From assembly GCA_947581835.1 (NCBI GenBank), contig CANPVV010000009.1, positions 1-35,451 on the forward strand: a stretch of DNA of 35,451 nucleotides, given 5' to 3'. Numbering within the stretch: the stretch's first letter is position 1; each line of letters opens with the position of its first letter. Under the pieces are notes generated by a model that did not search any database, was not told the DNA's origin, and saw nothing but the letters and a program-made list of their open reading frames with translations. This document shows, in pieces, positions 28,529-33,131 of the stretch. The DNA comes from an uncultured Bacilli bacterium (GTDB lineage: Bacteria; Bacillota_I; Bacilli_A; RF39; UBA660). Position numbers and translations under genes: made by a program.

Positions 28529-29545
28529 CTATTCCTCCAAATTATTTAATCTTTTTTCTATATCTTCTATACTAGGTAATTTATTTTCTAAAAACTCTGG
28601 TATTTCTGATAATATTTTATATTCACTAACTCCAATCGGCTTATTTATATCTTTTAAAGCCAACTCAGCTGTAATTTTCTTTTTATTTTTACACAATAAT
28701 ATTCCAAATGTTGGATTATCATCATCACTTTTAATATATTCATCTACCGCACTTAAATAAAAATTAAGTTTACCAGCATATTCTGGTTTAAAATCTGTAG
28801 TTTTTAACTCTACTACTACATAACATTTAACTTTTAAATTATAAAATAATAAATCTAAATAATAATCTTCATCATCTATCTCTAAATGATACTCTCTTCC
28901 TACAAAAGCAAAACCATTACCAAATTCTAACAATAATTTAGTTATATTATTTATTAATTCTTTTTCTAATTCTACTTCTTTTAAACTTCCTTTATCAGTA
29001 ATAAAATCAAATATATATGGATCTTTTAATAATTCTTTAACTTGCTCTTTATGTGGTGATACTAAAGTCTTATCAAAATTATTAGTTTTATTTTCTAATA
29101 AAGCTTGTCTTTCATATAATTTACTTTCAATTTGGTGTATTATTATTGGTCTCGACCAATCATTGTCAATAGCCTCTTTAATATACCAATTTCTCTGTTC
29201 ACTATTATTCACTCTATCCATAATAGTAGTTATAGAAGTCCATGGTAATTTTGCAACATGATGCTGCAAAAATTCATCATCACTAAATTCTTTAGCAAAT
29301 TTCTGCATATATCTTAAATTTCTAGCAGACATACCTTTTAAAGTTGGAAATTCTACTTTTAAATCTTTAGCTAAATTATCTATAAAAGAAGTACCCCAAT
29401 TATTATTTTCTAATAATATTAAACCAATATTATAATACATTTTAATTAATTCTTTATTAGTACTTAAAATAACTCTATTTCTAGTTGTTATTAAAGTATT
29501 TTTAATATTACTTAATACTTCAAAATATTTATTATTATCTATCAT
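28529..29545 (-). CDS. YhcG/DUF1016-family protein with C-terminal PDDEXK nuclease domain
   Basis: YyNIGLILLENNNWGTSFIDNLAKDLKVEFPTLKGMSARNLRYMQKFAKEF; nuclease core YYLDLLFYNLKVKCYVVVELKTTDFKPEYAGKLNFYLSAVD. Confidence 0.93.
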   Translation of the reverse strand: MIDNNKYFEVLSNIKNTLITTRNRVILSTNKELIKMYYNIGLILLENNNWGTSFIDNLAKDLKVEFPTLKGMSARNLRYMQKFAKEFSDDEFLQHHVAKLPWTSITTIMDRVNNSEQRNWYIKEAIDNDWSRPIIIHQIESKLYERQALLENKTNNFDKTLVSPHKEQVKELLKDPYIFDFITDKGSLKEVELEKELINNITKLLLEFGNGFAFVGREYHLEIDDEDYYLDLLFYNLKVKCYVVVELKTTDFKPEYAGKLNFYLSAVDEYIKSDDDNPTFGILLCKNKKKITAELALKDINKPIGVSEYKILSEIPEFLENKLPSIEDIEKRLNNLEE

Positions 29546-29932: not shown

Positions 29933-29966
29933 CTTTCGTAGCATCACTGTAGTGAAACTACGAAAG
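29933..29966. repeat. Hairpin overlapping the stop codon of the 29944 ORF
   Basis: CTTTCGTAG-CA-TCAC-TGTA-GTGA-AA-CTACGAAAG. Confidence 0.8.
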
Positions 29967-31377
29967 GATTACCTTTTGAACCATCTGCACTAGTATCGCT
30001 TTTAAATGGTGTACCAGCTTTGAGGTTTATTACTGGGCGCACACCAATGTTAGTGCCAGTCACGCGCCAGCGATTGAGGTAGCCAGTACTATCCACAGAG
30101 AACACCTGAGCATCCGCCGCACAATACGGAGACATCGTCCAGTAATATTGACCAGTATACAAGTAATATGTACTATTACTATAAGATGAACCATAACCAG
30201 ATCCTGCAAACATTACTTCATCTGCTGTAATTAATCCTACAGGCACCGGTAACGAATGATTTCCTTTACTACTATTAGCACTTGTATATAAGTCTTCTGT
30301 CTGTGGACATTTAAAAGACGGCCTTTTATCTGTATATATCCTTACATATCCACCATAATATGTATAGCTTGATCCCCAACCATATTCTTTCTTATTAATA
30401 TTGCCACCAGAACCACTTGCATAAGGGGTTCTATCTCCACAAAAACCAGCATCTTCATCTATGTATTGTTTAACTGTCGTAGGAAATTCTGCACCATTAT
30501 ACCAAGTGACTATTTGCTTCAATATATTACTATTAGTAGAATTAGCGTGAGTAGCTTTATATGCTTCATCGTCTCCCGTACCTTTAGTTTGAGGTTTTCC
30601 ATACATATAACCTACATAAGCATTATCATTATAAGAATCATTAAACGTTATACCGGTTGCTATCATAGTACCAGTTCCGCTAACCGCTGCACTTCCTTTA
30701 CCACTATAGATTAATCTTATTGAGCCATTTCCGTTTATTCTTACTATTCGCCAATAAGTCTTATCTATCAGAACCCAATTTTTTTCTGCTGTACCTCTAA
30801 AATAGTAAGTTTCTCCATCGTCATCATACCCTTTACACAATAATGTTCCTGGCTCTGTACTTGGACTCGTAATACCTGATTTCGCTTGACCTGTAGATTG
30901 GTCGACTTCTGGGCATTTACTTGCATCTTCAGTTACAGTCAAACTACCATCTTTATACAAATCAGCCAATGTATCTTTCGCAGTAGCTTTCCCATCTAAA
31001 TAAACCTTACACCTAGTTCCTCTCTCATCTATTCCTATATATAAACCATTTTCATCATATTTAATCGCATCAGTTATTTTATCATTACTACCCTTTTTAA
31101 GACAATAACTCATACTTTCATTTACTGTATAACTTCCTTCTGGTACTTCTTCTACATATCTATAATCTGTCTCTCCCTTATCTTTAACATATATTCCTAA
31201 AACTGTTAAATCTGGTAATTTATAATCTATAGTATCTTGTACTAATTTAGCATTAGTAGTTACTTTATATTTAGCTTTAGTTATATTAAGTACTATTGCT
31301 AATACTATAACTAAAAATATACTTACAATTAAAAAACCTTTCTTTAAATTATTCTTCTTTAAAGTTTCTAGTTTCAT
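29944..31377 (-). CDS. Membrane-anchored surface protein; C-terminus resembles DGR-type/DUF6273-like target domains
   Basis: N-terminal TM GFLIVSIFLVIVLAIVLNI; C-terminus YWRIVRINGNGSIRLIY...YWTMSPYCAADAQVFSVDSTGYLNRWRVTGTNIGVRPVINLKAG. Confidence 0.75.
   Translation of the reverse strand: MKLETLKKNNLKKGFLIVSIFLVIVLAIVLNITKAKYKVTTNAKLVQDTIDYKLPDLTVLGIYVKDKGETDYRYVEEVPEGSYTVNESMSYCLKKGSNDKITDAIKYDENGLYIGIDERGTRCKVYLDGKATAKDTLADLYKDGSLTVTEDASKCPEVDQSTGQAKSGITSPSTEPGTLLCKGYDDDGETYYFRGTAEKNWVLIDKTYWRIVRINGNGSIRLIYSGKGSAAVSGTGTMIATGITFNDSYNDNAYVGYMYGKPQTKGTGDDEAYKATHANSTNSNILKQIVTWYNGAEFPTTVKQYIDEDAGFCGDRTPYASGSGGNINKKEYGWGSSYTYYGGYVRIYTDKRPSFKCPQTEDLYTSANSSKGNHSLPVPVGLITADEVMFAGSGYGSSYSNSTYYLYTGQYYWTMSPYCAADAQVFSVDSTGYLNRWRVTGTNIGVRPVINLKAGTPFKSDTSADGSKGNPFVVSLQ
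30031..30105 (-). repeat. Putative variable repeat (VR) in the 3' end of the 29944-31377 CDS
   Basis: Aligns with 33013-33090: 60/75 aligned columns identical plus a 3-nt gap. 12/15 substitutions are at adenines of the other copy (minus strand). Confidence 0.65.
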
Positions 31378-31570
31378 TTAAATTACCTCTATTCTTTTTA
31401 TATTATAATTACTTTATAATACTATTTCATTATGTTCGACAAAACATATCAAAATATCTTATATTTTTTTACTTTATATTTCTAATATACAATATTATTA
31501 ATAAAAATTCAAGTAATTTTATATTAGAACTTTACATTTTTAAAATATAATATAAAAAATAAAAGTAGTA

Positions 31571-32773
31571 TTAACTAATCATACTACTTATTGGAATAAC
31601 TTTATATTTACTTGTTAAATCAACTAAATTTACTGAATTACAAATAACTCCTCCACTACCTATATTATTTAATTTATCTAATTTTCTAAAAGAACTAATC
31701 ATACTTATATCTATTTTATTCTTATATTTAATTTCATAAAGATAATATATATTATCATAATCTTTAACTATTAAATCAATTTCATATCCATCTTTATCTC
31801 TATAAAACATAAAACTATTATTTAACCCATAATTATCATTTATTTTAATTAATTCTGATATTATATAGTTTTCATATAAGAAACCTAAATTAGTATAGTT
31901 TTCTAATGCTTTAATTGTATTTAAACCACACAAATAAGTACATATTCCACTATCCATAAATATAATCTTAGGAGAACTTGTAATTCTTTTTAATTCTTCT
32001 TTTCTTAAAGGATAAATTAATTTAATAATACCTGTAGCTTCTAATACACTTATCCATGATTTTATTGTTTTAACGTCTTTACCTGTATCTTTCGCTATAG
32101 AACTATAATTTAATATCATACATGCCCTAGAAGCAATTGAAACTAAAAATACATAAAAAGCATTTAAATCTTCTATCTGTTTTAATTCTCTTATATCTCT
32201 CTCTAAATATAAATTAATATAACTTTTAAAATAATATTCTCTTTTCATATCTTGTAAAACAAAACCTGGCATACCCCCATTTAAAATATTTTTTAAAATA
32301 ACAGTTTTATCAATATATTCTTTAGTAGTTAACAAATCAAAAGAAACAGGTAAATACTTTGATTTTACAATCTCTCTATAAGCAAAAGAATTCATCTCTA
32401 AAACTCCCATCCTACCTGCCAAAGTTTCACTAACCCCCTTCATTAATTCTATTTTTTGAGAACCAGTTATCCAAAAAAGTCCATTTTCTTTTGAATTATC
32501 ACATATAATTTTAATATAACTCATAAGCTTTGGAGCATACTGAATTTCATCAATAATTATAGGAGGTTTATAAATATTAAAAAACTCTTCTGGATTACTT
32601 AAAGCTTTAGCTCTAACGTTTAAATCATCTAAAGTAACATAATTTCTCTTAGCTTCTTTAATACTTAATAAAAAAGTAGTCTTCCCCACCTGTCTTGGTC
32701 CTGTAAGTAATACTGCTTTAAACATATTACTATACTCTAAAAAAGCTTCTTTAATATTCCTACTATAACTCAT
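31571..32773 (-). CDS. DUF4143-type AAA ATPase
   Basis: VLLTGPRQVGKTTFLLSIKEAKRNYVTLDD, PPIIIDEIQYAPKLMSYIK, GSQKIELMKGVSETLAGRMGVLEM, C-terminal EIDLIVKDYDNIYYLYEIKYK. Start moved from 32845 to MSYSRN at 32773 because the track's extension translates repeat DNA. Confidence 0.9.
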   Translation of the reverse strand: MSYSRNIKEAFLEYSNMFKAVLLTGPRQVGKTTFLLSIKEAKRNYVTLDDLNVRAKALSNPEEFFNIYKPPIIIDEIQYAPKLMSYIKIICDNSKENGLFWITGSQKIELMKGVSETLAGRMGVLEMNSFAYREIVKSKYLPVSFDLLTTKEYIDKTVILKNILNGGMPGFVLQDMKREYYFKSYINLYLERDIRELKQIEDLNAFYVFLVSIASRACMILNYSSIAKDTGKDVKTIKSWISVLEATGIIKLIYPLRKEELKRITSSPKIIFMDSGICTYLCGLNTIKALENYTNLGFLYENYIISELIKINDNYGLNNSFMFYRDKDGYEIDLIVKDYDNIYYLYEIKYKNKIDISMISSFRKLDKLNNIGSGGVICNSVNLVDLTSKYKVIPISSMIS

Positions 32774-32815
32774 AAATATCACCAAACTAATATTATCATA
32801 AAATAACTTTTTTGT

Positions 32816-32882
32816 CAAATTTGGAATTAACTCCAAAAAAGTCAAAAAATGGCAAATTTGGAATTAACTCCATATTTGCCAT
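32816..32882. repeat. Two 20-bp direct repeats plus inverted repeat upstream of the DUF4143 ATPase
   Basis: CAAATTTGGAATTAACTCCA at 32816-32835 and 32853-32872; second copy flanked by ATGGCAAAT (32849-32857) and ATTTGCCAT (32874-32882). Confidence 0.9.
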
Positions 32883-33012
32883 ATAACTTTGTTCTAGTCT
32901 TAAATACATGACTTAAAACATCAAAATTAATTATTTAGTCTAATCAAGGATTAATCTTGTATCCTAATTCTTTCATATTAAGCCTTAACCAAATATATAA
33001 GTTTTAAAAGGA

Positions 33013-33090
33013 TATTGGGCGCACACCAATGTTAGTGTTATTCACGTTCGTGTTGTTGAGGTAGCCGTTAGTATTATCCACAATGAACAT
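33013..33090 (-). repeat. Putative template repeat (TR) or TR-derived remnant
   Basis: Noncoding, GC-richer than its surroundings. Minus-strand reading MFIVDNTNGYLNNTNVNNTNIGVRPI is rich in AAC/AAT codons, as in DGR templates; homologous to 30031-30105. Confidence 0.6.
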
Positions 33091-33131
33091 GGCTAACAAA
33101 AACATATTCTTGTAGATTAACCCTAATCTAT

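Follow-up and report, generated by a model that had tools for sequence, protein, structure and literature searches.

The window analysed here, a stretch of 35,451 nt from an uncultured Bacilli bacterium, carries a noncoding repeat with an imperfect copy in a nearby gene, which raises the question of whether the two are the template repeat (TR) and variable repeat (VR) of a diversity-generating retroelement (DGR) in the absence of any reverse transcriptase (RT) in the window. The window represents contig C9 of a 1.29-Mb genome of 59 contigs that is 99 % complete; the genus is most likely Candidatus Caccenecus, a naming that is inferred. Both copies were found on the minus strand at the sites given by an earlier note on this DNA, and their exact 22-nt identity (CACTAACATTGGTGTGCGCCCA) was confirmed, with the qualification that the coding interval given there, 30031–30105, is just the 3′ part of the variable copy at 30034–30132. 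The features concerned are as follows.

29944..31377, minus strand: target gene for a 477-aa protein with an N-terminal membrane helix at residues 3–32 and a C-terminal DUF6273-like domain
30034..30132, minus strand: VR, residues SPYCAADAQVFSVDSTGYLNRWRVTGTNIGVRP
30011..30045, minus strand: constant block that covers the VR end and continues past it, GGTGTGCGCCCAGTAATAAA..., resembling an initiation-of-mutagenic-homing (IMH) site and common to targets
33016..33090, minus strand: TR core of the window template-RNA gene, AAY-rich, reading MFIVDNTNGYLNNTNVNNTNIGVRP

In a codon alignment of the window template with the variable copy, which contains one 3-nt gap besides the substitutions, 11 of 23 adenines were changed against 3 of 49 other bases; the counts reported previously (12/25 and 3/50) differ by gap placement only. 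Over its 3′-terminal 48 nt, the template matched the target gene without gaps at 37 positions. Since 300 shuffles gave at most 27/48, and since the genome has 10 additional noncoding copies of the intergenic sequence, the match is not due to chance. The reading of the pair as a DGR TR and VR was borne out by the adenine-directed differences together with a DGR-type RT module in the genome.

That module also agrees with the proposal that RT and Avd would be encoded elsewhere in the genome, as genes for a MutS-like protein, an Avd-like protein and an RT lie side by side on contig C38. The RT is the only RVT_1 gene in the genome, has an intact open frame and contains the motifs GLPIGNMTSQ and YMDD. 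The adjacent Avd-like gene matched bAvd (PF22296) at 5e-10, just over the cut-off, and PHROG 3206 ('Avd protein of DGR') at 1.4e-15, with a match to NF033474 below cut-off; a MutS_I-domain protein is encoded upstream in the same module. This three-gene order is kept in many genomes of the genus, and all three frames are intact in the source genome and in many sister species, while some sister species have broken RT genes. The C38 enzyme was assigned as a DGR RT because its relatives at ~40–58 % identity mostly lie in ordinary VR–TR–RT loci whose mismatches are nearly all at adenines. Directly before the MutS-like gene (locus L023 on C38, just upstream of 8160, minus strand) is a tiny predicted membrane peptide, MITKSIFLSFIFILVMMGSIILTTKRGRD, whose end, MMGSIILTT, recurs in the sister loci L083 and L084. 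The same genus also contains a second DGR-like RT lineage, 45–64 % identical and with its own Avd, in genomes G012, G014, G015, G003, G020 and G029 (e.g. loci L106 and L108).

A genome-wide search for further copies of the noncoding repeat recovered 11 template copies, all noncoding. The initial description of a cryptic pair was thus right as to the pair and understated the system, which comprises 11 stand-alone templates and ~39 targets. Five of the templates are arrayed in ~310-bp units on C25, downstream of uvrA; two are on C10, and C9, C15, C23 and C36 carry one each. The assemblies are metagenome-assembled genomes, and further templates may be missing from that of the source genome. All 11 have a common 3′ scaffold, and a typical template gene has a TATAAT box, a helix closing the TR, a pair of conserved hairpins and a stem resembling a terminator. 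The TR of the window copy is 5′-truncated relative to most others in the genome. Its remaining parts were placed as follows.

33115..33122, minus strand: closing helix P1, 5′ strand, GGTTAATC, where the RNA probably begins
32949..32956, minus strand: 3′ strand of P1, GATTAATC, pairing with the 5′ strand
32880..33027, minus strand: conserved 3′ scaffold, matched by model R1 at 144.7 bits and supported by covariation
32885..32928, minus strand: terminator-like stem AATTTTG/CAAAGTT, with a weak T-run (TTATAT) in the window copy

The scaffold runs from the TR end GGTGTGCGCCC through P2 (ATATCCT/AGGATA) with an inner hairpin to a small hairpin and the terminator-like stem. Across 65 distinct templates, 97.1 % of cells were paired and 33 of 39 base pairs showed double changes, with 317 compensatory cells compared to 85±12 in shuffles and 26–48 with slid partners. 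P1, which joins sequence 5′ of the TR to sequence after P2, was present in 58/58 units scored, with compensatory changes in sister units (GGTTAGTT/AACTAATC and GGTTTATC/GATAAATC). No Rfam family matched the template RNA. A generic promoter and terminator scan of the C25 array gave nothing above background, and a position-specific P1/TATAAT test was used in its place: TATAAT occurred within 25 nt upstream of P1 in 41/58 units compared to 4.6 % of random positions, at identical spacing in 25 units, the commonest distance being that of a −10 element. The presence of P1 in every unit scored and the −10 spacing are most simply explained by independent RNA genes with transcripts beginning at P1.

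At the genus level, the scaffold covariance model gave 221 matches in 32 of 36 genomes, with up to 25 in one genome, and template count correlated with target count across genomes (rho 0.72). Template sites are syntenic between species, for example downstream of uvrA, and sites common to several species indicate stable loci. By contrast, the window template is missing from the syntenic locus in G018, where the target gene is kept. Three near-complete genomes without the RT also lacked the RNA family. An RT ortholog was not found in G031, G024, G025 and G033, where templates are present, so that either the coupling is not strict or the assemblies have gaps; one template among these RT-less genomes (in G025) is frameshifted with a damaged 3′ anchor.

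The source genome has ~39 paralogous membrane-anchored DUF6273-like genes bearing a VR in the pattern ...YWTMSP[variable]GVRPVINL..., and up to 89 target matches per genome were found across the genus, counts that include some template cores. The N-terminal helix of the window target is in keeping with the membrane anchoring inferred earlier. Its VR ends ~30 codons upstream of the stop, at the 3′ end of the gene; after CCCA, targets read GTAATAAA and templates AATATCC, giving an IMH distinct from the IMH* of the TR. PF19789 (DUF6273) scored 19.8 bits in the C-terminal part only, below its cut-off of 23.5. The C-terminal domain was modelled confidently (pLDDT 86), and several viral fold matches of the model carry the name DUF6273. 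The sole significant PDB match was weak, to the Thomasclavelia IgA peptidase 9qa6 (E 4e-5, TM 0.34), and lectin matches were obtained only at E above 1, leaving a suggested C-type-lectin fold unconfirmed.

Upstream of the target gene, 31386–31526 (minus strand) is up to ~90 % conserved in loci of other species and is also common to four other targets in the genome; a search for an upstream element common to the targets found one in a minority of them only. The target gene is flanked by a DUF1016/YhcG nuclease gene (28529–29545, minus strand) and an AAA_14/DUF4143 ATPase gene (31571–32845, minus strand), matching the PADLOC candidate-defence models PDC-S02 and PDC-S01, respectively. The genes for the DUF1016/YhcG-type nuclease and pheS are preceded by a T-box leader (RF00230; 29572–29764, minus strand), which scored 70 bits and so fell short of the gathering score of 93.

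To determine the relationship of the VRs to the templates, each VR was fitted with a scoring that treats all bases alike and was evaluated by Fisher tests that assume independent sites. The earlier interpretation would have been refuted by many paralogous copies without adenine bias; the copies are many and the bias is present. Overall, 229 adenines were lost and 95 gained in VRs relative to templates, and for 95 of the 229 template adenines that were changed, the new base is not seen at that position in any template. Where the first base of an AAY codon was changed, the third was kept in 104 cases and not in 35. No excess of adenine change was detected in the constant 3′ flank, and the 5′ flank had a mild excess. 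Individually, 13 of 39 VRs reached p<0.01 for adenine bias and several have very few non-adenine changes; those without significant bias are either diverged too far or not diversified.

The window VR was better fitted by T25b, a template of the C25 array, than by the neighbouring template, which bears out the idea of a second template. Over 99 nt without a gap, 14/28 adenines and 4/71 other bases differed from T25b (p=1.6e-6). The 3′ part of the VR is better fitted by the window template, and a composite of T25b followed by the window template left 14 changes at adenines and one elsewhere. The window VR therefore looks, from these alignments, like a mosaic of the two, and two successive partial conversions, or a template absent from the assembly, are inferred to be likely. 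Other VRs prefer T10b, T36, T25a or T25e.

Taken together, we consider it very probable that the window belongs to a DGR in which the template became detached from the RT locus and was multiplied into a repertoire of dispersed copies acting in trans on ~39 targets, with activity being inferred. The RNA-gene family and its covariation, the machinery genes, the adenine bias, the lack of a TR near the RT and the homology to cis systems are established by comparison of sequences alone. Transcription, action in trans, retrohoming and a ligand-binding role of the targets remain inferences in the absence of expression or population data. Under this model, the window would hold one template-RNA gene and one target gene, with the protein machinery supplied by the single MutS-like–Avd–RT module on C38. 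The eleven stand-alone RNA genes, arrayed and single, would give structured template RNAs, each folding with P1 closing the TR, P2 with its inner hairpin, the small hairpin and the terminator-like stem. The RT would copy the TR and misread adenines, and the cDNA would replace the matching 3′ segment in any of the ~39 targets with the 3′ anchor GGTGTGCGCCCA. Different templates may feed different targets, and partial overwriting by a second template would generate mosaics such as the window VR.

Many noncoding partial copies in arrays, a common 3′ anchor and a mosaic VR would also be expected of silent cassettes, in which intergenic copies donate fixed sequence by gene conversion, as in pilS and vls, without mutagenic reverse transcription. 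This is very improbable given the adenine-directed asymmetry, the many changed adenines with bases in no template, the dedicated RNA structure and promoter, and the presence of a DGR-type RT–Avd–MutS-like module. The dispersed and arrayed copies, and the resemblance of the P1 strands to short terminal inverted repeats, could likewise point to a MITE-like mobile RNA family that captured a piece of a target gene and spread, with the RT unrelated; however, relatives with cis cassettes have a homologous scaffold adjoining the RT gene, template sites are kept in synteny across species and the family is absent from the three near-complete RT-less genomes, so that this explanation is hardly tenable.

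It is also conceivable that the templates and VRs are fossils of a DGR whose diversification is over. The window template has no TATAAT at the −10 position upstream of P1 and no good T-run, and this copy therefore looks weakened; its fold on its own is only modestly stable (z −1.7). Many VRs are far from every template, and broken RT genes in some sister species and templates in RT-less genomes point the same way. For the system as a whole the earlier suggestion of a remnant is unsupported and we regard it as improbable, given the intact RT, Avd and MutS-like frames in the source genome and many sister species, the RNA helices kept by compensatory change and the VRs with very few non-adenine changes.

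A TR inside the RT cassette is the usual DGR layout and is not essential to the mechanism; to our knowledge, the template adjoins the enzyme gene in known DGRs. The system resembles the BPP-1 DGR in having an RT, Avd, adenine-directed TR/VR substitutions, a constant 3′ anchor and a structured RNA region that follows the TR. The BPP-1 TR-RNA lies between avd and a spacer that precedes the RT gene (PMC12875486), whereas the source genome has no template near the RT or Avd and instead carries at least 11 templates, each a separate RNA gene. Distant paralogous targets of one DGR are shared with Trichodesmium, where 18 loci have TR/VR homology (PMC8867640), other cyanobacteria, Treponema denticola and Thiohalocapsa PB-PSB1, in which the TR/RT of one locus was inferred to act in trans on other loci (PMC10907252). 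In those remote-target DGRs the acting TR stays with the RT cassette, unlike the dispersed templates and ~39 targets per single RT seen here. The literature, in a survey limited to open-licence papers and hence weak evidence, describes remote VRs and occasional multiple TRs and no dispersed stand-alone template genes. DGR searches expect a template beside the RT, and therefore a dispersed layout would be overlooked or counted as defective.

The nearest comparison is with cis DGRs of related uncultured Bacilli (L162–L192, including Candidatus Faecimonas), which have a homologous RT, the same target domain type and a homologous template-RNA scaffold with GGGTTAATCTA ... AAACAAGATTAATCC, and differ from the source genome in that the template lies next to the RT, singly or in a short tandem row. 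No TR was detected near the C38 RT by blastn or the RNA model, or within up to 10 kb of 21 related RT loci by the RNA model and self-comparison for adenine-biased repeats. RT loci at least 74 % identical had no TR, while relatives at ~40–58 % mostly had cis TR/VR pairs, with 7–23 adenine and 0–2 other mismatches in most; in many of these loci the scaffold model identified homologous RNA following the TR next to the RT. In a tree of 45 RTs the TR-less loci formed one clade (97/95), with L168 as an unrelated exception. As judged from these comparisons, the RT locus is one that has lost its own template. G138, which belongs to a different genus, combines a single cis template with eight dispersed templates; cis-only, mixed and trans-only arrangements would together provide a graded series for studying the rewiring of such a system. 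Template-RNA copies in tandem rows beside the RT were observed in the cis loci L163, L165 and L167.

If this reading is right, the template RNA acts fully in trans and is made from a gene of its own, with a separate promoter and a folded scaffold, and this scaffold, supported by covariation, defines in testable terms what is recognized by the RT–Avd complex. A gut bacterium with a reduced genome would then be maintaining a large family of membrane-anchored proteins that a single mutator can tune.

The templates themselves differ in an adenine-biased manner. Relative to the genus consensus, 508/1647 adenines and 280/2745 other bases of the template cores differed (odds ratio 3.9), and for the source-genome templates the counts were 48/294 and 41/638 (p=3e-6), with p-values that ignore relatedness. 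This suggests that mutagenic cDNA may overwrite templates or that VRs may be captured as templates, with selection on the encoded residues as an alternative. That the machinery itself has shaped the template repertoire in either way, with targets overwritten stepwise from different templates, is a tentative proposal that we hold to be possible and somewhat short of even odds; if true, one RT would run a combinatorial template–target library that renews itself, not unlike an antibody gene-segment pool. Two near-identical template pairs were informative, one being identical and the other having 9 mismatches, 6 of them involving adenine, which is not decisive. Among the 61 template units of the genus, adenine-biased divergence was strongest in G030:C20 (L254).
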